Notes under the pieces: model-generated
The model's input: the letters and a program-made list of their open reading frames with translations, nothing else
Databases searched by the model: none
Told to the model about the DNA's origin: nothing
NCBI GenBank assembly: GCA_024508855.1
Contig: JANINJ010000007.1
Span: forward strand, 1 to 63,801
Origin: Xanthobacteraceae bacterium
GTDB lineage: Bacteria > Pseudomonadota > Alphaproteobacteria > Rhizobiales > Xanthobacteraceae
DNA: 63,801 nucleotides
Direction of reading: 5' to 3'
Part shown: piece after piece, positions 29,294 through 39,543 of the stretch
Numbering within the stretch: position 1 is the stretch's first letter
How the letters are laid out: every line of letters begins with the position of its first letter
Made by a program: the position numbers and the translations under genes

Positions 29294-29318
29294 CGGCTCC
29301 GGTCGGCCGTCACGAATA

Positions 29319-29347
29319 TTGTCTGTCACAAGGCACCGCTATATAAG
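29319..29347 (+). promoter_or_regulatory. Probable sigma-70 promoter of dksA
   Basis: TTGTCT, 17 bp, then TATAAG gives four and five matches to the -35 and -10 consensus. The start point would be near 29354, upstream of the TTG at 29394, which argues against the longer reading frame that begins at 29319. Confidence 0.5.
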
Positions 29348-29393
29348 CTGCCGCGCGCCGGACCCATTCCGGAGCCTTGCAGACAGAGATGGA

Positions 29394-29810
29394 TTGGCCT
29401 TGGAAAAGTTGAAGAATTATCGACCGTCCGAAAAAGAGCCTTTCATGAACGACCGCCAGCGCGATTATTTTCGCGCCAAGTTGCTGGCCTGGAAGGACGA
29501 AATCATCAAGGAATCGAAGATTACGTTGCAGACGCTCCAGGAAGAGAACGTCAATCATCCGGATCTCGCCGACCGTGCGTCGTCGGAAACCGATCGCGCC
29601 ATCGAGCTGCGCGCCCGGGACCGGCAACGCAAGCTGATCTCGAAGATCGACGCGGCACTGCAACGCATCGAGGACAACACCTACGGCTATTGCGAAGAGA
29701 CCGGCGAACCGATCTCGCTCAAGCGGCTGGAAGCACGGCCGATCGCAACGCTCTCGGTCGAGGCGCAGGAGCGTCACGAGAAGCGCGAGAAGGTCTATCG
29801 CGACGAATAG
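29394..29810 (+). CDS. dksA: DksA/TraR-family RNA polymerase-binding regulator
   Basis: A 138-residue DksA. The conserved N-terminus EKLKNYRPSEKEPFM is followed by the coiled coil with the tip motif DLADRASSETD, and a zinc-finger region YGYCEETGEPISLKRLEARP. Only the first Cys of the zinc finger remains; later positions read SVEAQERHE, a form common in alphaproteobacteria. DksA works with ppGpp in the polymerase secondary channel. The start is a TTG at 29394 or 29400; an ATG at 29445 would remove conserved residues. Its last 55 bp are duplicated at 30789-30843. Confidence 0.85.
   Translation: MALEKLKNYRPSEKEPFMNDRQRDYFRAKLLAWKDEIIKESKITLQTLQEENVNHPDLADRASSETDRAIELRARDRQRKLISKIDAALQRIEDNTYGYCEETGEPISLKRLEARPIATLSVEAQERHEKREKVYRDE
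29756..29810 (+). repeat. Direct repeat, left copy: 3' end of dksA
   Basis: These 55 bp, ending at the dksA stop codon, recur at 30789-30843 with a single difference (GAATAG here, GAGTAG there). The copies lie 1033 bp apart and enclose the beta-lactamase gene. Confidence 0.95.
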
Positions 29811-29890
29811 CCGGACGGTCATCGTCCCGGCGCAATGATGCTGAAGCTGGGCAACGCCTTGGCGTCAAGGCCTTGGCTTCAGGGATTCTC

Positions 29891-30748
29891 ATGAAGATTG
29901 ATCGACGTGCCTTGCTCGCCGCCGTTCCCGGTCTGGCGTTGTGGCCGGTTGCGGCGCAAGCGGCTTTGCCCGCTCTCACGGCCTATGAGCGCGAGAGTGG
30001 CGGCAGGATCGGCCTCTATGCCGCGAATGTCGGCTCCGGCAAGACGCTGTCCTGGCGCGCTGGTGAGCGCTTCGTCATGTGCAGCACATTCAAGGCGTCG
30101 CTTGCGGCATGCGTTCTTGCACGAGTCGACCGTGGCGTGGACCGCCTCGACCAGATGATCGCGTACGGACAGAAGGATCTTCTCGCCCATGCGCCGGTTG
30201 CCAGACAGAAACTCGCCAAGGCCCGCATGTCGCTCGGCGAGATGTGTCAGGGCGCGGTGGAATTGAGCGACAATACCTGCGCCAACCTGTTGCTGGACCA
30301 TATTGGCGGTCCTATCGCGCTGACCGATTTCTGGCGCTCGACCGGTGACGCGCTATCGCGTCTCGATCACAACGAGCCTGAACTCAATCGCTCGCCGCCG
30401 GGCGATCCGCACGACACGACAACGCCAGCGGCGATGGCCGGTAACCTCAAGCGTTTCATCCTCGGTGAAGTGTTGTCGCCAACCTCGCGCGGGCAATTGA
30501 CGGAATGGATGGTCAACTGCAAGACAGGCGCCAAACGCTTGCGCGGCGGGTTGCCGAACAACTGGCGGATCGGCGACAAGACCGGCAGCAATGGCAAGGA
30601 TGCGGCTGGCGACATTGCGGTGGTCTGGCCGAAGCCCGATACGCCCATCATCGTCGCTGTCTATACGCAAGGTGGCAAGCCGAATGCCGCGCAGCACGAG
30701 CGGGTGTTCGCCGCGATCGGGCGAATGGTCGCCGAGCGCCTGACCTGA
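29891..30748 (+). CDS. Class A beta-lactamase
   Basis: A 285-residue class A serine beta-lactamase with an export signal (MKIDRRALLAAVPGLALW, a DRR twin-arginine-like start, cleavage after AQA). All catalytic motifs are present: STFK at 65-68 (active Ser65), SDN at 126-128, EPELN at 162-166 (general base Glu162) and KTG at 230-232. Cys64 just before the active Ser matches Ambler Cys69, but the position after KTGS is Asn, so the Cys69-Cys238 bridge of class A carbapenemases is not predicted. It would hydrolyse beta-lactams in the periplasm; the spectrum cannot be read. No ampR-type regulator adjoins it. It lies between two copies of the dksA 3' end. Confidence 0.93.
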   Translation: MKIDRRALLAAVPGLALWPVAAQAALPALTAYERESGGRIGLYAANVGSGKTLSWRAGERFVMCSTFKASLAACVLARVDRGVDRLDQMIAYGQKDLLAHAPVARQKLAKARMSLGEMCQGAVELSDNTCANLLLDHIGGPIALTDFWRSTGDALSRLDHNEPELNRSPPGDPHDTTTPAAMAGNLKRFILGEVLSPTSRGQLTEWMVNCKTGAKRLRGGLPNNWRIGDKTGSNGKDAAGDIAVVWPKPDTPIIVAVYTQGGKPNAAQHERVFAAIGRMVAERLT

Positions 30749-30788
30749 TCCCTTTCGTTATAAGCTATTGTTTGATCACGACACTTTG

Positions 30789-30843
30789 GGTCGAGGCGCA
30801 GGAGCGTCACGAGAAGCGCGAGAAGGTCTATCGCGACGAGTAG
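30789..30843 (+). repeat. Direct repeat, right copy: detached 3' end of dksA
   Basis: 54 of 55 bases match 29756-29810. It sits 40 bp after the beta-lactamase stop and includes the stop codon of the copied frame, but has no start of its own, so it is a non-functional dksA fragment. Sequence on either side does not match around dksA. Confidence 0.95.
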
Positions 30844-30975
30844 GCTGCAGGTCTGTCGTCATTAGGTCTATCGGCATTTGATTGGGGAAGCGCGGCGTGC
30901 GCGACCTCAATCGACACATCACAGACACGCCATAAGCGTATCAATACGCGGAGATTTTCTGCGGGCGTTCGCGAA

Positions 30976-31509
30976 TTACTTGATCAGCGTAATCGCTTGC
31001 CGGAAGTGCGGGTTGTCCGCCGTCGCAAGCCATTCGAAGACCACCATCTCCGTCGTGACGATCTCCGCGCCATGGCGCTCCATGCGGCGGATCGCAGTAT
31101 CCTTGTCTTCCGGATGCCGTGAGCCGAGCGCGTCGCGCACCACGTAGGTTTTCCGGGAAGCTTCCACCAGGCCGAGCACCGATTGCTGGACGCAGACATG
31201 GGATTCGCAACCCGCGACCACGACATGCGCGTCGGCCGGAATGCGATCCAGAAAACCATCCTCCCTGCATGCATCGAAGAACTGCTTGTGGACCAGCCGA
31301 TCCTTCTCGACCGGAATGTCGGCGACGGTCGGCCCCAGTCCCTTTGAGTTCTGTTCGGTGAACAGCCGTGGAATGGCGAACAGCTTCGCGGCCTCGATGA
31401 GCCGATTGGCGTTGCGAACGGCCGTCGCGCCCTCATGGATCACCGGCATCAGCCGTGACTGGAAGTCGACGATCAGGAGCAGCGAGCGCTTCGGGTCGAT
31501 GGTGAGCAT
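30976..31509 (-). CDS. Isochorismatase-family cysteine hydrolase
   Basis: A 177-residue single-domain member. The catalytic Asp is in LLLIVDFQSRL (Asp15), the Lys lies in RLVHKQFFDAC, and the nucleophile Cys is in AGCESHVCVQQS with the usual preceding block. Family enzymes hydrolyse amides or vinyl ethers (nicotinamidase, isochorismatase, N-carbamoyl compounds); the substrate is open. It starts 3 bp after the stop of the TetR-type regulator gene on the same strand, so the two form a transcript. Confidence 0.87.
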   Translation of the reverse strand: MLTIDPKRSLLLIVDFQSRLMPVIHEGATAVRNANRLIEAAKLFAIPRLFTEQNSKGLGPTVADIPVEKDRLVHKQFFDACREDGFLDRIPADAHVVVAGCESHVCVQQSVLGLVEASRKTYVVRDALGSRHPEDKDTAIRRMERHGAEIVTTEMVVFEWLATADNPHFRQAITLIK

Positions 31510-31512
31510 GTT

Positions 31513-32136
31513 TCATCCCTCGGACAGATGGGAGATACGGTCCTTGACGTAGGCTTCCATGAGGTCCGGTGCCGATGCGCCGAACATCCGGATGCGGCCG
31601 GTGTGCAGCAGCAGGAGCAGCCCGGTGGCATGGGCGAAGCAATCGACCATCAGCAGGTTGGCCTTCTGCCGCGAAGCCCCGAGGTCGATTGCGGCGACGG
31701 CGATCGGGCGTAGCGCAGCCTCGAGCGCCGCGTTCAAAACTTCGTCGCGTTGGTGTCCGAGGCCCGCCGGCTTCATGCCGCCGCGGAACAGATAGAAGCC
31801 GAGATCGAGATCCTGCGGATTTTCCGCATAGAAGCGGAAGAACGACATGGCGGCCGCCTTCAGTTTCTGCGCCGGCGTTTTCGCCACCGCGACTGCCCGG
31901 TCGACCGCCGCGCCCAGCGAGGCGAGAGACGCCTTCAGCACTTCCGCATAGATCGCTTCCTTGGATTCGAAGTGGAAGTAGAGCGCTGCGGCGGTGTAGC
32001 CGGCGCGGACCGCGATTGCGCGGAGGCTCGCGCCCTCGAGACCTTCTTCCGCGAACACCTGCTTCGCGGCATTCAGGATGAGTTCGCGCTTGTGCCCGTT
32101 CACCGCGGCGCGCCGGCTCTGCCGTTTCTCGACCAT
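31513..32136 (-). CDS. TetR-family transcriptional regulator
   Basis: A 207-residue TetR protein. The N-terminal helix-turn-helix is clear: KRELILNAAKQVFAEEGLEGASLRAIAVRAGYTAAALYFHFESKEAIYAEVL. The C-terminal ligand domain is helical with a hydrophobic run near residue 175. The start at 32136 (MVEKRQ) has a run of G just upstream; the longer frame reaches into the divergent promoter. It is transcribed with the isochorismatase and diverges from the HpaB/AbfD-family gene, so these three probably form one regulated pathway. Confidence 0.9.
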   Translation of the reverse strand: MVEKRQSRRAAVNGHKRELILNAAKQVFAEEGLEGASLRAIAVRAGYTAAALYFHFESKEAIYAEVLKASLASLGAAVDRAVAVAKTPAQKLKAAAMSFFRFYAENPQDLDLGFYLFRGGMKPAGLGHQRDEVLNAALEAALRPIAVAAIDLGASRQKANLLMVDCFAHATGLLLLLHTGRIRMFGASAPDLMEAYVKDRISHLSEG

Positions 32137-32154
32137 CTGCCCCCCGAATCCTGC

Positions 32155-32207
32155 TTGACAAGATTTCAGCAATGTCAAAAAATCTAACACCGTTCAATTA
32201 ATCGAAC
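32155..32207. promoter_or_regulatory. Promoter and candidate TetR operators between the divergent genes
   Basis: Two inverted repeats lie here. One is TTGACA-N12-TGTCAA (32155-32178), whose left arm is a perfect -35 hexamer with AAAAAT 17 bp on. The other is GTTCAATTAATCGAAC (32192-32207), a 16-bp palindrome with one mismatched pair. Both lie within 60 bp of the two starts, as expected for a TetR-type autorepressor. Confidence 0.55.
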
Positions 32208-32223
32208 AAGCGGGAGAAGCGTC

Positions 32224-33774
32224 ATGCTGATGTCGGGTGCCGACTACCGGGAATCCCTGCGCGCCTACAAGCCTCGGGTGTTCTTGAACGGAAACGCCGT
32301 GGACAGCGTCGCGGACGAACCGCTGCTCGCACCCGGCGTCGCCGGCGTCGGCGTCACCTACGATTTCGCGCTCAAGCAGGAACACGTGCCGATCATGACG
32401 GCGCGGCAGAGCACGTCCGGCAAGATCGTGAACCGGATGCTGCACATCAACGAGACCTCGCAGGATCTGCTGTTCAAGCTCGAGGCGGTGCGATTGGTCT
32501 GCAAGACGGTCGGCTGCGCGCAGCGCTACCTGACGCATGACGCACTCAACGGTCTCTATCAATCGACGATGCTGACGGACGATCGTCACGGCACCGATTA
32601 CAGCCAGCGATTCCTTGCTTACCTGCACGAGGTTCAGGACAAGGATCTCACGCTCGGCGTCGCCATGACGGATGCCAAGGGCGACAGGTCGAAGCGCCCG
32701 AGTCAGCAGGTCAATCCGGACGTCTACGTTCATATCAAGGAGCGCCGTCCGGACGGCATCGTCATCCGTGGCACCAAGGCGATCGTGACCGGCGCGCCCT
32801 ACATGCACGAGTTTCTCGTGATGCCGTGCCGGACCCACACTCCGGAGGACAAGGATTGCGCCGTGTGCTGCGCCGTTCCTTGCGATGCGCCCGGCGTCAC
32901 CATTATTGCGCGCCCGGCCGGGCGTCCCGGCGAAGCCGCCGCCAAATTTTCCGCCAAGTACGGCCAGTCGGTCGGCGTGGTGATGTTCGACGACGTGTTC
33001 GTTCCGCACGATCGCGTCTTTCTCGCCGGCGAGACCGAGGAGGGCGGCTTCCTCACCACGTCCTACGCGACGCATCACCGGCACTCCTGCATCGGTGCGC
33101 GCGCGGGATTCGGCGATCTCTTGATCGGCGCCGGCGCGCTGATGATCGAGGCCAACGGCCTCGACATCGAACGTCATGCGCACATCCGCGAGGCGATGGT
33201 CGAACTCATCACCATCACCGAGAGTTTCTATGCCTGCGGCGTCGCGTCGTCGGTCTACTGCACCAAGGACCCGGCCGGATCGGTAATGCCGGACGCGGTA
33301 TTCTCCAACATCGGCAAGCTGCTGCTCGCGACCAAGATCTACGACATGCATCGCGTGGCGCATTACGTTTCGGGTGGCCTGATCGTGGCGTTGCCGGGAC
33401 CGGAGGAAGACCACAACCCGGAAACGAGAGCGTCGATCGCGGCGGTCATGGGCGGGCGACCGGACATCCCGGCGGATAAGCGCGCCGAGGTCGCCCGGTT
33501 TATCGAAGACCTGACGGTCTCGCACGAGGCGGGCTGGTACTCGGTGATCTCCCTGCACGGCGGCGGCTCGCCGGAAGCGATGAAGCGGGAAATCTGGCGC
33601 AACTATCCGGTCATGGAGAAGATCGAACTGGTGGAGGGTCTGCTCGATCGCGGCGTTCTCGACGAAGGCCGGCGCGTATCGAAACAACCCGGACGTTGCT
33701 GCACGACCGGATGTCAGGTTCCGGAGCCACCTCAGCACGCCGAAGTGTCGGCGCTGGAAAGTGCCGCCGAGTAG
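32224..33774 (+). CDS. HpaB/AbfD-family flavoprotein (4-hydroxyphenylacetate 3-hydroxylase type)
   Basis: A 516-residue protein with the HpaB N-terminal and C-terminal domains; VYVHIKERRPDGIVIRGTKAIVTGAPYMHEFLVMP and VFVPHDRVFLAGE are family blocks. The superfamily includes FADH2-dependent phenol hydroxylases and 4-hydroxybutyryl-CoA dehydratase (AbfD), which carries a 4Fe-4S cluster on Cys99, Cys103, His292 and Cys299. Here the matching positions are Cys98, Tyr102, His285 and Ala292, so the cluster is probably absent and a flavin-only enzyme is more likely. No hpaC reductase gene adjoins. A CC-x3-C stretch near residue 493 is unusual. It diverges from the TetR regulator. Confidence 0.8.
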   Translation: MLMSGADYRESLRAYKPRVFLNGNAVDSVADEPLLAPGVAGVGVTYDFALKQEHVPIMTARQSTSGKIVNRMLHINETSQDLLFKLEAVRLVCKTVGCAQRYLTHDALNGLYQSTMLTDDRHGTDYSQRFLAYLHEVQDKDLTLGVAMTDAKGDRSKRPSQQVNPDVYVHIKERRPDGIVIRGTKAIVTGAPYMHEFLVMPCRTHTPEDKDCAVCCAVPCDAPGVTIIARPAGRPGEAAAKFSAKYGQSVGVVMFDDVFVPHDRVFLAGETEEGGFLTTSYATHHRHSCIGARAGFGDLLIGAGALMIEANGLDIERHAHIREAMVELITITESFYACGVASSVYCTKDPAGSVMPDAVFSNIGKLLLATKIYDMHRVAHYVSGGLIVALPGPEEDHNPETRASIAAVMGGRPDIPADKRAEVARFIEDLTVSHEAGWYSVISLHGGGSPEAMKREIWRNYPVMEKIELVEGLLDRGVLDEGRRVSKQPGRCCTTGCQVPEPPQHAEVSALESAAE

Positions 33775-34219
33775 GGAACGGTCACGATCTGCACTCCCGC
33801 CGTGCAGCGATCCCGAATTGATCGCCACGCGAATGCAGTGCAGGATCAGGTGGGGCCGCCGTACGCACACAAAATCCGACGGCCCCGTGCCGCACAATTG
33901 AAATCGTGGCCGGTCCCTCTTGGTTTTGACTGTCCGGCCAGCTCTGCGCGACATTTTCAATGATAGCCGCGCGAAGGACCGCATCAATTTAACTCGCATC
34001 TTAACCTAACCGATCAAGGTTACTGGCGGGGCTTGCCGCGCGCCGGTGCAAACCGCATTTGTCAGTCGACGACACCAATTGCCCGCATAACGCCCAGCGG
34101 TCGCGTTCGCGGGTGGCAGGTCATGTCGATCTGCATGGTTAGGCTGGACTGTTTTCGCTATATTCGGCCGTAGTCAACGAACCTGCGACAAAGAAAAGCA
34201 GGCAACACGGAGGAACGCT
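33775..34219. other. Intergenic region before the SMP-30-like gene
   Basis: No gene is supported in these 445 bp. A 16-bp inverted repeat, TAACC-N6-GGTTA, lies at 34007-34022. GGAGG sits just before the downstream ATG, and TATATT near 34163 could be a -10 box, with a poor -35. Confidence 0.4.
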
Positions 34220-35209
34220 ATGTCACACGGCACGTCAGGGCTTGTGAACTATCGATCGTTATGGAGCGGTTTCGGCCTGCTCACGTTACTGGCCGTCTCG
34301 GCTCCCATGCCGGCGTCGGCCACGCCGAACGAGATTTCAATTCCCGGCGACCGCGCCTTTCCCGAAAGCATCACGTCGACGTCCGATGGCACGATCTATA
34401 TCGGAAGCATGGCGGAGGGACTTGTGTTTCGTGCGTCGCCTGGCGCGGCCAAGGCCGAGGTGTGGATCAAGCCCGGCACCAATGGGCTTTTGTCGGTGCT
34501 CGGCGTGCTGGCGGACGAGAAATCCGGCACGCTATGGGCATGCTCGTCGGACCTCTCGGGCATGGGCGTCAAGGTCGGCGGCGATAACAGGCAGGTAGCG
34601 CTCAAATCCTTCGATCTGAAAACCGGTGCAGCGAAGGCCAGCTATCCGCTGCCGGGCGGCAAGGCCTTGTGCAACGACATGGTGGTTGCCGCCGACGGCA
34701 CGCTGTATGTGACGGACTCGCTCAATCCGCACATCCTGCGGCTCAAGCCCGGCGCCTCGGCGCTCGAAGTCTGGGCGGAGAATCCGTTATTCCATGTAGA
34801 GAAGGGGGCGGGCCTCGACGGCATCGCCATAGGCAGCGACGGCAGCATCGTCACCAACACGTTCAATGGCGGTGGGCTGTTCAAGGTGGAGATGAAGAGC
34901 GACGGCAGTGCAGGGGCGGTGACGCAACTCAAGACCTCGCGTCCGATCACCTTGCCGGACGGGCTGCGCAAGCTTGGCAACAACACATTCCTGATGATCG
35001 AGGGCGAGGGGCGTCTCGACGTCGTCACGATCGATGGCGCGAATGCAAAGATCGATACCGTTAAGGACGGCTACAACGGACCGGTGGCGGTGACGCAGGT
35101 CGGCCCGATGGCATGGGTGCTGGAAGGCCAACTCACGCACCTGTTCGATCCCAAGACCGGCAAGCCGGGTCCGTTCCATGCGACCGCGGTGGCGATCCCG
35201 GCGCATTGA
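34220..35209 (+). CDS. Exported SMP-30/gluconolactonase-like beta-propeller protein
   Basis: A 329-residue protein with a signal peptide (about residues 1-35, ending ASA). The propeller blades repeat a pattern of DGTIYIGSMAEGLVFR, DGTLYVTDSLNPHILRLKPG and DGSIVTNTFNGGGLFKVEM. SMP-30-like proteins hydrolyse lactones or simply bind ligands; the metal-binding residues cannot be assigned confidently, so catalysis is unproven. It is monocistronic, with GGAGG upstream of ATG 34220, and converges with the next gene. Confidence 0.75.
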   Translation: MSHGTSGLVNYRSLWSGFGLLTLLAVSAPMPASATPNEISIPGDRAFPESITSTSDGTIYIGSMAEGLVFRASPGAAKAEVWIKPGTNGLLSVLGVLADEKSGTLWACSSDLSGMGVKVGGDNRQVALKSFDLKTGAAKASYPLPGGKALCNDMVVAADGTLYVTDSLNPHILRLKPGASALEVWAENPLFHVEKGAGLDGIAIGSDGSIVTNTFNGGGLFKVEMKSDGSAGAVTQLKTSRPITLPDGLRKLGNNTFLMIEGEGRLDVVTIDGANAKIDTVKDGYNGPVAVTQVGPMAWVLEGQLTHLFDPKTGKPGPFHATAVAIPAH

Positions 35210-35235
35210 CGCCCGGACGTGAAACGGAAGTGTTC

Positions 35236-35967
35236 TTAGTTTGGCTCGCCTGGGCGGCGCGGATGCCGCTTGGCGAGCCGCTTGCCGTGCGCCGGCTCGA
35301 CGCGCGACGATGCCGCGATATCGGCGGTGACAACCGGCTTCGGCTCATCGAGGCAACCGCGGAACAGCACGTAGTGCATGCAGTTGCCCTGTCCGTTCGG
35401 AGGGGCGGTTGTTGCGGTTTCCGGTGCTGCTGCCATCGCATTCGCCGCGGCGGCGCGCTCCATCTCGGCACCGACGCCGACCTCGCAATGGACGCCTTCC
35501 GAACGCAGTGCCTGCGCGACCTCCGGATCGTTGCACAGGATCTGGGTCGCCGCCTTGCGGTGGCCGAGATTGTACAGCGTTCGCGAGAACAGACGCAGGT
35601 TACATCCCTTGTCCGTGACGGTGCCGGCGATGGTGACACCGACGCCGCCGCCGGCGCCGCCGATGCTGTTACTGCCGAGGCAGCTTTCTATGCCGGCGGC
35701 CGTCAGACTGGGAGCAACCACGGCGGGCGTATTGCCGCGCGCGGATACGTGGACGTTGCTGGACGACGATCCCGCCGTTGCCGTGCTGGCGCCGGTGGTT
35801 GCGGTGGCGGTCGTCGTGTTGCCGCTGCCGTTACCGTTGCCATTGCCGCTGCCGTTACCGTTTCCGAAGCCGGTGTTGTTGTTGGAATTGCCGTTGCCGT
35901 TGAGGACCTGGGCATGCGCGCCTGTCACAGCCAGCAGAAAGACCGAAGCGAAAATCAAGCTTTTCAC
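35236..35967 (-). CDS. Secreted Gly/Asn-rich protein of unknown function
   Basis: A 243-residue protein. A signal peptide (VKSLIFASVFLLAVTGAHAQ) is followed by a low-complexity Gly/Asn run with GNGN steps (about residues 21-50), a Thr/Ala/Ser segment, and a folded C-terminal part with several Cys (SCLGSN, DKGCNL, ILCNDP, VHCEV, NCMHY, RGCLDE). The GTG at 35967 is chosen because TTGGAGG lies seven bases upstream and the signal starts at once. I recognise no family for the Cys part. Such Gly/Asn stretches are flexible and sometimes self-associating. Confidence 0.65.
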   Translation of the reverse strand: MKSLIFASVFLLAVTGAHAQVLNGNGNSNNNTGFGNGNGSGNGNGNGSGNTTTATATTGASTATAGSSSSNVHVSARGNTPAVVAPSLTAAGIESCLGSNSIGGAGGGVGVTIAGTVTDKGCNLRLFSRTLYNLGHRKAATQILCNDPEVAQALRSEGVHCEVGVGAEMERAAAANAMAAAPETATTAPPNGQGNCMHYVLFRGCLDEPKPVVTADIAASSRVEPAHGKRLAKRHPRRPGEPN

Positions 35968-36213
35968 GTGCAGCCTCCAATTCATGCATAAAGAGAAAAG
36001 GTGCTGCATATTGACGCTTAATTGTAACGGACGAAATCGGCCTGCCGGGATTTCTCAAACAAAGTAAACGGTTGTGGCCTTCGGGTCCGATTGCGTCAGA
36101 AGTCGTGACCTATAATCGGACGAGTCGGCACATTCCTCAACGCGAGGCTGCCCGTCCGAAGGACGAGCAGGCCATCAGTCCGAGATACGAACCGAGAGAT
36201 ACGAAGCAAGCCG

Positions 36214-36645
36214 TCAGTACTTGAATTCCGGCATCGCCTTCAGCTGATCCTTGGTGGCGTTGAGCACCGCGCGATCCGGATACCATTCCTTCTTGGTTTC
36301 CGATGTCTGGCCGCCGGTGGTCTTGCCCGCCTTGTTGGCGAACTTCAGTTTGTTCATCGGCACGAGCACGTCGTGTTCGCCCATCCCGAGAAATCCGCCG
36401 ACGCCGATCACGGCGCCATTCACGCGGCCGTCCGAGTCGACGATCAGCTCGGAGATATCGCCGACCTTTTCGTTCTGCTCATTGTAGACATTGACGCCAA
36501 CGAGCTTCGACGCGCGCCACTCTCCGGCAGCCGCAATCGGTGCAGCGGCCTGCGATGGCGTGTTGGCCGGCACCTGAGCGTGAGCTGCCGATGAAGCGAG
36601 AGCGATGGCGAGAGCTGCTATAACTGTGCGCAAGATAACCTCCAT
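36214..36645 (-). CDS. Exported PRC-barrel domain protein
   Basis: A 143-residue protein with a signal peptide (MEVILRTVIAALAIALAS, cleaved after AHA) and a PRC-barrel: WRASKLVGVNVYNEQNEKVGDISELIVDSDGRVNGAVIGVGGFLGMGEHDVLVPMNKLKF. The role of exported PRC-barrel proteins is unclear; they are often induced by stress. It diverges from csbD with 208 bp between the starts, and both look like stress genes. The ATG at 36645 opens the signal; the open frame beyond it is not needed. Confidence 0.8.
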   Translation of the reverse strand: MEVILRTVIAALAIALASSAAHAQVPANTPSQAAAPIAAAGEWRASKLVGVNVYNEQNEKVGDISELIVDSDGRVNGAVIGVGGFLGMGEHDVLVPMNKLKFANKAGKTTGGQTSETKKEWYPDRAVLNATKDQLKAMPEFKY

Positions 36646-36853
36646 GTTGTGTGGAGAGAGAAGTGCACAGCAATCGAAATGTTCCTGGAGTTGTCGATGA
36701 TGATTTTCCAAACAGAAGTTCGGTACGAAATCGTACACAACGCCGCGCACGTATCGCTTCGTCGTCATCGATGCGCATCAAGCTATCTTGTCGCATGCCG
36801 GAACGGTGAGCGGCGATCGCTCTTATCCCGTATTCAAAACGGGAGACATCGTC

Positions 36854-37057
36854 ATGGATTGGAATCGTGTTGAAGGAAACTGGAAGCAGGTCAAAGGCAA
36901 GATCAAGGAGCAGTGGGGCAAGCTGACCGATGATGACCTCGATGTGATCAACGGCAAGCGCGAACAACTGGAAGGCAAGATTCAGGATCGATACGGCTAC
37001 CAGAAGGATCAGGCCAGGAAAGAGATCGATACCTGGTACGACAAGCAGACCTGGTAG
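36854..37057 (+). CDS. CsbD-family stress protein
   Basis: A 67-residue CsbD protein: MDWNRVEGNWKQVKGKIKEQWGKLTDDDLDVINGKREQLEGKIQ, then YGYQKDQARKEIDTW, matches the family over its full length. It is a small charged helical protein induced by general stress in other bacteria, with no known activity. The start at 36854 is the family start; the frame also opens further upstream. A terminator follows at 37108. Confidence 0.92.
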   Translation: MDWNRVEGNWKQVKGKIKEQWGKLTDDDLDVINGKREQLEGKIQDRYGYQKDQARKEIDTWYDKQTW

Positions 37058-37107
37058 CCGCAAGATCGTCGCGCGATGAGATAACTGAAGCCATTTTCGC
37101 CGTGGGT

Positions 37108-37143
37108 ACGGTCGCCGCGAATTCAAGCGTGGCGGCCGTTTTT
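37108..37143 (+). terminator. Terminator after csbD
   Basis: A 12-bp imperfect stem (ACGGTCGCCGCG with CGTGGCGGCCGT) with an AATTCAAG loop, followed by TTTTT. It lies 51 bp after the csbD stop. Confidence 0.7.
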
Positions 37144-37246
37144 GATGGCTGTGCGGGGCGCCGAAATCGAAGGCTTGTGTATACAACCAGACAGACGGCA
37201 ATAGAGCGAATGCGGGATTATTGCCCATAGCTGGGAGGTAACCGCG

Positions 37247-37423
37247 ATGATGGATTTTCAGAGACGGATCGACGATCTGGAAAAACGATCCCAGGAGAGC
37301 GCCCTGATTGCGCAACTGGCGACCGATCCGGATGTGCGACTTCACAATACAAACCTGGCGAAAGAGCTGAACCGCCTCGCTAGAGAACTCAGGAAGCAGT
37401 TGCCGTTGCTGCGCGCGCTCTAG
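37247..37423 (+). CDS. Small helical protein, 58 residues, unknown
   Basis: An ORF starting ATGATG with GGGAGG eight bases upstream. It encodes a charged, heptad-like helical protein (FQRRIDDLEKRSQESALIAQ near the start, LARELRKQLPLLRAL at the end). It may form a coiled coil. No known family was recognised. The good ribosome site and coding-like composition support it, but it lies alone between the csbD terminator and a convergent gene. Confidence 0.6.
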   Translation: MMDFQRRIDDLEKRSQESALIAQLATDPDVRLHNTNLAKELNRLARELRKQLPLLRAL

Positions 37424-37537
37424 TCCTGAGCGTCTGTGGTCGTATCAAGCAGCAGTCGGTAACGAGCGATTTCTTCGTTGTCGGTTGGCTCGAAGCGTCG
37501 ATGTGCGTGTCGATGTCAGCGCGGCTACCATCGAAGA

Positions 37538-38128
37538 CTAGCCGATCGTATCGAAGAGACGCAGTATCCACGTCGTTTGATAGGCCAGAGTTCCTAGAAC
37601 GAAGATGGTGTGAAATTTTCGATTGTCGGTCAGAACCGCGATAACGCACAGGGTAATGAGAACGGGCGTTCGAAAAAGATACTCGTGGCCGAATTGGGCG
37701 AAGTGGTCTTTTCCCTTCAAAAAGGTGTCGACAACATCAAGAGCATAGGCGAGGGCCAAAAGCCCGAAGAGCCACGCGCGCCGTGAATAGAAATAGTTTT
37801 CGTAGCTGCTGTAGTCCTCCATCGAGTCCGGAAACAGCATCGCGCAAATCAGGAATAGAACGATCGCATATCCGATCAGGAAGAGGTACGTTCCGAAGGT
37901 CCAATGTCCGATCTGGAAAAGACCGAACTCCCACCACCAGAAATGAACAAGCATCAAGAGAGCCGCGACCACCCAGGCAAGATGCACGGAATAAAGGCGG
38001 TACTGCTTCGGGTGCTGAATGATACGGGCGACCCCGGACAAAAGGCGTGCAACGCCCAGACCTATGATCATTCCCAGCACGATTCGAATGTGAGGAAAGA
38101 TATCGTGCGTCGTAACTATCTTATCCAT
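37538..38128 (-). CDS. Multi-pass membrane protein of unknown function
   Basis: A 196-residue protein with about six hydrophobic helices (IRIVLGMIIGLGVARLLSG, LAWVVAALLMLVHFWWWEF, GTYLFLIGYAIVLFLICAM, AWLFGLLALAYALDVVD, TPVLITLCVIAVLTD and a last helix). I do not recognise the family. The start at 38128 (MDKIVTTHD) is preferred; the reading frame continues to 38377 but overlaps the next gene's opposite frame. It has lower GC than the flagellar genes, as does much of 36-38.6 kb, which suggests accessory origin. Confidence 0.65.
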   Translation of the reverse strand: MDKIVTTHDIFPHIRIVLGMIIGLGVARLLSGVARIIQHPKQYRLYSVHLAWVVAALLMLVHFWWWEFGLFQIGHWTFGTYLFLIGYAIVLFLICAMLFPDSMEDYSSYENYFYSRRAWLFGLLALAYALDVVDTFLKGKDHFAQFGHEYLFRTPVLITLCVIAVLTDNRKFHTIFVLGTLAYQTTWILRLFDTIG

Positions 38129-38196
38129 CAGTTTCAGGCGCTGTTCGGGCTTATGGAGAGATACGCCGGGAAATTCGCGGCGGTGGACGGATGCGG

Positions 38197-38562
38197 TTAC
38201 TGTGCCGGCACCGGACAGCTGAGATCGCCTTCCTGGCAATTGAGGTAGGCTTTCAGCTGCGCTGTCCGATCTGCGCTCAGCGTTGCCCTGCATTCGGCAA
38301 TGACCATGGGCGCGGCACTTCCACCGTCTTCGCCGCTGGACTGGAACGTGCATTCGGCGTCCCGGAACGCAATCCATGCCCGCTGCGCGTGGATGAGGCG
38401 CGTCTTGCCATTGGCGTCGTCGGCCAGACGTTTCTCGACCTGTTTGAACATCTCGTTCAGCAACTTGTCGGCTTTCTGAAAGTCAGCGCCCGGATCATTG
38501 TCCGCGCGGGCGGCCGATACGGTCAAAGACAGCATGGCAAAGACAACAAGCAGTCGTCGCAT
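38197..38562 (-). CDS. Exported DUF1311/LprI-like protein
   Basis: A 121-residue protein with a signal peptide (about residues 1-20, ending AARA) and the DUF1311 pattern: LLNEMFKQVEKRL, then KTRLIHAQRAWIAFRDAECTFQSS, CRATLSADRTAQLKAYL and a final Cys pair. Members related to LprI inhibit lysozyme in some cases; most are unstudied. It lies 68 bp upstream of the membrane-protein gene on the same strand. Confidence 0.8.
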   Translation of the reverse strand: MRRLLVVFAMLSLTVSAARADNDPGADFQKADKLLNEMFKQVEKRLADDANGKTRLIHAQRAWIAFRDAECTFQSSGEDGGSAAPMVIAECRATLSADRTAQLKAYLNCQEGDLSCPVPAQ

Positions 38563-38685
38563 AGTAAAATCCTTCCTGTCAGCATCGATCGACGATAGTC
38601 AGGGGTATTCCGATGTAGCAAGAGCTTATCTGACGAGAGGCAATGCGCTGATCGCGCAGCTTCGCCTGGTTTTATTCATTGGCGT

Positions 38686-38730
38686 GTAAAATAAGCACGG
38701 CCCTCGGCAGGGGAGCTACCGAAGGCCGTG
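38686..38730 (-). terminator. Terminator of the flgF-flgG-flgA-flgH operon
   Basis: On the minus strand a long stem (CACGGCC with GGCCGTG, extended by TTCGGTAG against CTGCCGAG) is followed by CTTATTTTAC. It lies about 60 bp after the flgH stop and closes the operon. Confidence 0.85.
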
Positions 38731-38790
38731 TCGTACGTCGCATCGCGCCTAGGTTCGCGATGTGACGTGGGAGCTGGGTGAACCGTCTGG

Positions 38791-39543
38791 TTAGAACGGC
38801 AGCAGCACGTCGAGCACCTGCTGGCCGTAGCGCGGCTGTTGCACGTCGGTGAGCTGGCCGCGGCCGCCGTAGGCGATGCGGGCTTGCGCGATCTTGCTGG
38901 AATCGATGGTGTTGTCGCTCTGGATATCCTCCGGCCGCACGATGCCGGCGACCACCAGTTCGCGCACTTCGAAATTGACGCGGATTTCCTGCTTGCCCTC
39001 GACGACGAGATTGCCGTTCGGCAGGAGTTGCGTCACCACGGCGGCGACGCTGGTCTGCAGGTTCTCCTGACGCTGCACCGTACCTTTGCCGTCGCTGGAC
39101 GACGTGGAGTCGGCGGTGAGCAGCCGGCCGGGGAACACCGATGCCGCCGCGCCCGTAAGCAATTTGCTGCCGGCGAAGTCCGTCAGTCCGGTGTCTTCCT
39201 TGTTGGCGCGGCTGCGTTGGGTCTCGTTGGCGATGTTGGCCTTGTCGGTGAAGTTCACGGTGACGGTGAGGATGTCGCCGACCTGATGCGCGCGCTGATC
39301 CTTGAAGAACGCGCGCGAGCCGTTACGCCACAGCGAGTTCGCATTGTAGGACGCCGCTTCCGGCACCGGCATCGGCATCTGCACCGGCTTGTAGCCCGGC
39401 TGCGTCGTCGGATTGTCGATCGAGGTCAGCGCCGGCTTCTCCCCGATGGCGGAGAGGCGGTTGATCGCCGAGCATCCGCTGGTAAGAGCGGCTGTCGTCA
39501 GCAGCGCAGTGGTGAGGATGACGCGGTTCAACTTGCTGGACAT
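38791..39543 (-). CDS. flgH: Flagellar L-ring lipoprotein FlgH
   Basis: A 250-residue lipoprotein. The signal ends in a lipobox with the lipid-carrying Cys24 (ALTSGCSAINR). SLWRNGSRAFFKDQRAHQVGDILTV, the NPNG-like LLPNGNLVVEGKQEIRVNFEVRELVVAGIVRPEDI and the C-terminal GGRGQLTDVQQPRYGQQVLD blocks are typical. It forms the outer-membrane L ring. It is the last gene of the minus-strand flgF-flgG-flgA-flgH operon, with 5 bp to flgA. Confidence 0.95.
   Translation of the reverse strand: MSSKLNRVILTTALLTTAALTSGCSAINRLSAIGEKPALTSIDNPTTQPGYKPVQMPMPVPEAASYNANSLWRNGSRAFFKDQRAHQVGDILTVTVNFTDKANIANETQRSRANKEDTGLTDFAGSKLLTGAAASVFPGRLLTADSTSSSDGKGTVQRQENLQTSVAAVVTQLLPNGNLVVEGKQEIRVNFEVRELVVAGIVRPEDIQSDNTIDSSKIAQARIAYGGRGQLTDVQQPRYGQQVLDVLLPF

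Follow-up and report, generated by a model that had tools for sequence, protein, structure and literature searches.

Genomic islands and other integrative elements that occupy the 3' ends of genes are bordered on either side by a directly repeated gene end and leave the gene intact, and when such repeats flank a resistance gene they are usually taken as the mark of an integrase. The available part of a study on E. coli lacZ describes a Campbell-type insertion in which the insert is bordered by a partial duplication of the gene end and no integrase is needed (PMC3240628). In the conjugation tests reported there, 56 of 60 integrants gave a PCR product diagnostic of the duplicated gene end, which was confirmed in the 14 that were sequenced; the integrants had been meant to show one-sided homology, and the authors ascribed the duplication to one crossover by a molecule that had recircularised and was missing part of the homology, whereas 4 of the 60 appeared to stem from homology-facilitated illegitimate recombination (PMC3240628). 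Displaced immunity genes and gene ends of the Vibrio cholerae T6SS offer a second likeness, for in the portion of the report at hand a homology-anchored module replaces a gene end and the old end lies downstream (PMC5361080). The locus described here, a beta-lactamase gene between two copies of the 3' end of the core regulator gene dksA, resembles both. It differs from the lacZ integrants, which involved a laboratory plasmid, a selected marker and duplications of 109-950 bp (PMC3240628, as far as the excerpt goes), in being natural, in having a 70-bp duplication and in keeping its gene intact; from the T6SS loci, where toxin-immunity modules stand in arrays according to the same portion of PMC5361080, it differs in that a lactamase follows a core regulator and one junction is visible. 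With genomic islands it shares the gene-end repeats and the intact gene, but the contig has no PF00589 match, the cargo is 1 kb, and a 70-bp query found no second element at the site.

The window, that is, the whole stretch of 63,801 nucleotides that was analysed, is all of contig C7 of a genome (G000) of 5.16 Mb in 107 contigs. On its plus strand, dksA occupies 29400..29810 with an uncertain start (TTG at 29400 or an ATG further in); the TIGR02420 profile scores 149.9 bits for 29403-29810 against a cut-off of 115.5, and the Pfam domains DksA_N and zf-dskA_traR are found as well. A spacer (29811..29890, +) separates it from a gene for a protein of 285 aa (29891..30748, +), which scores 309.5 bits with NF033103 (cut-off 200) and in which alignment located STFK, SDN, EPELN and KTG, which we take to be the class A active-site motifs; family profile and motifs together identify it, by sequence, as a class A beta-lactamase. 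The preliminary description of this DNA had reported that the last 55 bp of dksA, stop codon included, recur 40 bp past the lactamase stop, and its coordinates were confirmed: 29756-29810 is repeated at 30789-30843, 40 bp downstream of the stop at 30748, with 54 of 55 bases identical and an A at 29807 against a G at 30840 as the sole mismatch. The repeat is confirmed as real and not a chance likeness by a repeat search of the window, which lengthened the pair to 80 nt at 88% identity, and by the same order of dksA, lactamase and repeat in G003, a genome of the same genus (apparently the record titled MAG: Hyphomicrobiales bacterium, JAFKKN010000006.1), with 92% identity to the window over 1441 bp. 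With this order found in two genomes, a chimeric join in the window's assembly is unlikely.

Seen from G003, the full duplicate is 70 bp long. The left copy, the dksA 3' end with its stop, runs from 29741 to 29810 (+) and the right copy from 30774 (GATC...) to 30843 (+), that is, from 15 bp left of the 55-bp stretch; a stretch of 25 bp (30749..30773, +) lies between the lactamase stop and the right copy and meets it in the same junction as in G003. The earlier statement that the flanking bases do not match has therefore to be moved 15 bp to the left (30774) and is correct beyond that, where homology is absent (2/10 and 1/10 bases alike between the two sides in the two genomes). The two parts of the duplicate have diverged differently: right and left copies differ at 1/15 positions in G003 and 5/15 in the window over the first 15 bp, and at 7/55 in G003 and 1/55 in the window over the remaining 55 bp. 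The whole repeat is dksA coding sequence, and a complete dksA paralogue on the right, a reading that the preliminary description had itself named as damaging, was set aside, since homology ends at 70 bp. As to the cargo of about 1 kb without an integrase, C7 has no PF00589 match, and all other listed frames of at least 80 aa in the insert overlap the lactamase. The repeat search detected no inverted pair at both insert borders that could serve as the terminal inverted repeats of a transposon or IS.

Within the genus, the 70-bp query matched seven of the eight genomes, with two copies in G000 and G003 and one copy in five; the eighth, G006, which is 86% complete, had no dksA match. The lactamase protein is present in two of the eight, again G000 and G003, and is without a match in the five genomes with a single dksA end. 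The lactamase is thus supported as an insertion in this genus with the dksA end intact on its left, as had been proposed. Among the 391 family genomes searched (330 matched, 61 with no match), two long copies of the dksA end occur in these two genomes, both with this lactamase; the search scored the two best candidates per genome, and short attachment cores would escape a 70-bp query. Besides G000 and G003, a second match appeared in 21 genomes, 23 to 54 bp long and lying either on a different contig from dksA or, where both shared a contig, no nearer to it than 38 kb; among these are one of 54 bp at 83% in G388:C52 and one of 38 bp, at the very end of its contig, in G335:C64. A widespread attachment site at dksA was rejected in view of the shortness of these second matches. 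As far as the 70-bp query sees, the duplicated dksA end is so far tied to this lactamase.

A third form of the locus was found in a second genus, to which two records titled Afipia belong. In four of its 29 genomes, namely G150 (Afipia sp. 64-13), G268 (Afipia sp. Root123D2), G252 (probably CP078014.1, AGun1) and G305, dksA is directly followed by a related lactamase after a related spacer, and each of the four gives one 70-bp match; taking the best-ranked rows, dksA and the lactamase fall in one match in at least 6 of the 391 family genomes. Among the best 80 of 149 stretches with a lactamase relative, dksA lies directly upstream in four, L084 (G003), L085 (Afipia sp. 64-13), L086 (Bradyrhizobiaceae AGun1) and L138 (Afipia sp. 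Root123D2). In the same best 80, none of the dksA-linked loci is titled Bradyrhizobium sp. (L154 has one weak 49-bp dksA match), the class A lactamases of Bradyrhizobium and Afipia belong to the same protein family at 67-84% identity apart from G003, and the closest lactamase outside the genus has 84% protein identity. A remnant of the right copy 3' of the lactamase was not found in L085, L086 or L138 (scores of 12, 10 and 11 against shuffle maxima of 16, 19 and 15). The comparison of dksA loci with and without the lactamase, suggested in the preliminary description, returned insert-bearing loci, insert-free loci and a repeat-free form; the condition that it had named as refuting, that all relatives have the lactamase without the fragment, is true of some relatives, and others lack the lactamase. 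The lactamase is probably not an independent element that selected dksA as its target.

The spacer is related across these genomes, its aligned differences from G000 being 0/66 in G003, 7/66 in G305 and 20/64 in G252. Homology of G000 to G305 is clear up to about the lactamase stop; the 25 bp beyond differ at 6/25 positions from G003 and at 16/25 from G305, and they match none of the Afipia-type genomes. In a lactamase tree built from nine rows of fetched genomes and 12 loci chosen among the 80 best of the 149 stretches, G000 and G003 are sisters (100/100) within a clade with G150 and G305 (100/99), and a topology that united the four Afipia-type copies to the exclusion of G000 and G003 was rejected (p-AU 9e-5); the grouping of all six dksA-linked lactamases, with support of 79/93, is not firm. 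The backbone tree of six flagellar genes, in which G001 and G007 fill 32% of the columns, conflicts with this: in it G003 groups beside G002 and G004, the partners of G000 are G005 and G007, these four relatives being lactamase-free, and G000 and G003 as one backbone clade was rejected (p-AU 3e-52).

Synonymous divergence was compared between the lactamase and its nearby genes. Between G000 and G003 it is 31.5/213.7 (0.15) in the lactamase versus 483/1249 (0.39) in seven nearby genes including dksA (Fisher p 1.6e-12); the pooled nearby genes omit flaN (uncovered in G003) and, for pairs with G305, flgF, and they include incomplete sequences for flgI in G003 and flgG in G305. The lactamase is also the closer sequence in the pairs with G305 (0.32 versus 0.45 for G000 and 0.32 versus 0.43 for G003), and it is no closer than the nearby genes in the pairs with G150 (0.43 and 0.43 for both) or with G252. 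Two further observations concern the lactamase phylogeny. Between the close genomes G150 and G305 (loci L185 and L176), the lactamase differs at 0.33 of synonymous sites and the nearby genes at 0.18, which suggests that members of the second genus, too, may have exchanged the lactamase. The lactamase of L134, a record titled Frankia sp. RB7, falls among Bradyrhizobium copies, and this record may be mislabelled or mixed.

The identity of the right copy is best seen in G003. The 150 bp 3' of it match the sequence that follows dksA in its lactamase-free sisters G002 (122/150 columns) and G004 (125/151), with alignment scores of 91 and 95 against shuffle maxima of 19 and 17, and do not match the post-dksA sequence of the Afipia-type genomes. 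This flank identifies the right copy of G003 as the end that the recipient's own dksA had before the insertion, and we read the window's right copy likewise. In the window, native sequence 3' of the right copy is not recognisable (no score above shuffles against 11 genomes), since a 3-kb block sits there. The bases of the right copy are too alike to separate native from donor by themselves: that of G003 is equally far from G002 and G305, with 7 differences in either case, and that of the window has 6 each to G000, G003 and G305, 7 to G007 and 8 to G005. The window's left copy ends in GAA TAG, as does dksA in the four Afipia-type genomes, and its right copy in GAG TAG; GAG ends are found in the sisters (GAG TAA in G005, GAG TAG in G007). 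This reciprocal hybrid site (dksA site 405) is the only one in the window's two copies, and GAA/GAG varies within the genus, with GAA in G001 and G002 and GAG in G004. In dksA of G003, the sister type is seen at every informative site between 237 and 333 (both included) and the donor type at 171 and 222, and site 351 is its own; with the start of the repeat at 339, the most likely place for the crossover in G003 is within the 70-bp repeat. In dksA of G000, donor-type bases occur at the upstream sites 118, 135, 249 and 264; its sites are mixed, and its sisters are less close. Of what a single crossover should leave, the partial gene duplication is seen in both genomes, and the native flank beyond the far copy is seen in G003 and unrecognisable in the window.

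From these results we consider it probable that a fragment holding a dksA end and the lactamase, likely circularised, entered by one homologous crossover in the end of dksA and that the module later moved between species. The source would be a genome of an Afipia-type genus in which the lactamase already stood directly behind dksA. The incoming DNA, probably circular, may have comprised the dksA end, the spacer and the lactamase with roughly 25 bp beyond it; one recombination, presumably by RecA, with the recipient's dksA inside its last 70 bp would complete the recipient's gene with the incoming dksA end and displace its own 70-bp end, together with the native downstream sequence, to the far side, where it would form the right copy. 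G000 and G003 share the same right junction, which on this reading means that the junction formed once and that a later exchange carried the module to at least one of their lineages. Against this origin, the donor is not in hand, given that the nearest lactamase outside the genus is at 84% and the 25 bp are unmatched in Afipia-type genomes. The donor-type sites upstream in dksA, the single hybrid site in the window, the pairs with G150 and the support of 79/93 weigh on the same side. The labels SCN18 and SCNpilot in the titles of G003 and Afipia sp. 64-13 presumably denote thiocyanate bioreactor projects, and co-occurrence in the same habitat, if it was so, would make exchange plausible. The locus suggests that a lactamase moved between genera, no mobile-element gene having been found beside it.

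A variant that we hold to be possible, though rather unlikely, would make the module a mobile cassette that lacks an integrase: a circle with one repeat would leave and re-enter the dksA end of relatives by homologous recombination, the end of a core gene acting as a docking site shared across species. Such a cassette would fit the finding of one right junction in both species, which are not each other's sisters, and likewise the step in the window from 5/15 to 1/55 differences between its two copies (Fisher p 0.001, a value that is too small since the boundary was chosen from the data).

Homology-facilitated illegitimate recombination of a linear fragment, with a homologous joint in dksA on the left and a non-homologous joint on the right, is in our view unlikely. 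It would leave the former gene end, now displaced, downstream of the incoming module, which is what the available part of PMC5361080 proposes for the Vibrio T6SS arrays; yet such a route is expected to delete recipient DNA, and G003 would allow for no more than a few lost bp, with the crossover confined to the roughly 6 bp that separate site 333 from the first base of the repeat at 339. The E. coli test, within the excerpt of PMC3240628, also gave few apparently illegitimate events against its many duplications (4 of 60 versus 56).

Site-specific integration, of which the preliminary description had called the restored gene end typical, we now judge improbable; the 1-kb module would then be a minimal or decayed integrative element with the dksA end as its core and an integrase acting in trans. 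The topology is that of an integrated element, with its core at the end of an intact gene, an insert flanked by the two copies and one site used in both species, and the genome does have nine PF00589 matches, on other contigs. The anatomy is supported as integration-like; by itself it does not distinguish RecA from an integrase that acts in trans. Site-specific integration itself is not supported: none of the nine PF00589 matches is on C7; the suggestion that the repeat might form the core of other element borders found no case in the 391 family genomes (70-bp query, 330 matched); and the lactamase stands behind a single dksA end, without repeats, in 4 of 29 genomes of another genus, the likely donor genus, which also speaks against a minimal integrating element as the source. 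Homologous recombination in a shared dksA end would produce the same anatomy without an integrase. In essence, recombination in a shared core gene can write an integrase-like signature, recognised here from relatives with the insert, relatives without it and a repeat-free version, and caution should be exercised so that attachment sites are not called from repeats alone.

Least probable, and indeed very doubtful, is an event of insertion or partial duplication that dates back to the common ancestor of the genus, the other species having lost the lactamase by recombination between the repeats. Such a loss would leave dksA intact, and the reading would accord with a right junction that is the same in G000 and G003, with 10/40 differences between them in the 40 bp around it (near chromosomal levels) and with a survey, in the part of PMC2884548 at hand, in which empty loci of repeat-flanked segments are over-represented in E. 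coli and in S. pyogenes, though not in S. aureus. It is opposed by the low synonymous divergence of the lactamase relative to its nearby genes and by its absence from G002 and G004, the genomes closest to G003. Vectors were considered separately. A plasmid source was rejected both by DNA (26 plasmid records with weak matches of 60-80% identity, none covering 80% of the query) and by protein (at least 5000 records, those listed all below 60% identity, the best listed at 56.3%), and so was a phage source, phages giving no DNA match and none of 18 pattern-matching stretches in viral contigs encoding a relative.

Some features of the wider locus can be described in their own right. The spacer has a predicted hairpin (29841-29882 in the window) in all six genomes with dksA and the lactamase; judged by eye, its 3' arm reaches the putative ribosome-binding site of the lactamase, and in the window it is 14 bp longer than in G003. 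Its cells are paired in 96.9% versus 93.1% in shuffles (3/500 shuffles reach 96.9%), two pairs changed on both sides are no more than shuffles give (187/500), and fold z-scores range from -0.9 (G003) to -4.1; no known RNA family was detected at 29300-31000 at E up to 0.1. The 3-kb block, 30844-33848, lies between the right copy and conserved sequence from 33849 and holds isochorismatase-like, TetR-like regulator and HpaB-like hydroxylase genes. It has no match in G003, a relative at 81% on other contigs in G002 and G004, and matches in 11 of 101 genomes; no direct repeat was found at both of its borders, near which there is one weak 14-nt inverted pair. The dksA-flgH interval as a whole (29811-38793 in the window) seems to collect insertions, as its length varies from 489 to 8983 bp in the 15 genomes measured.
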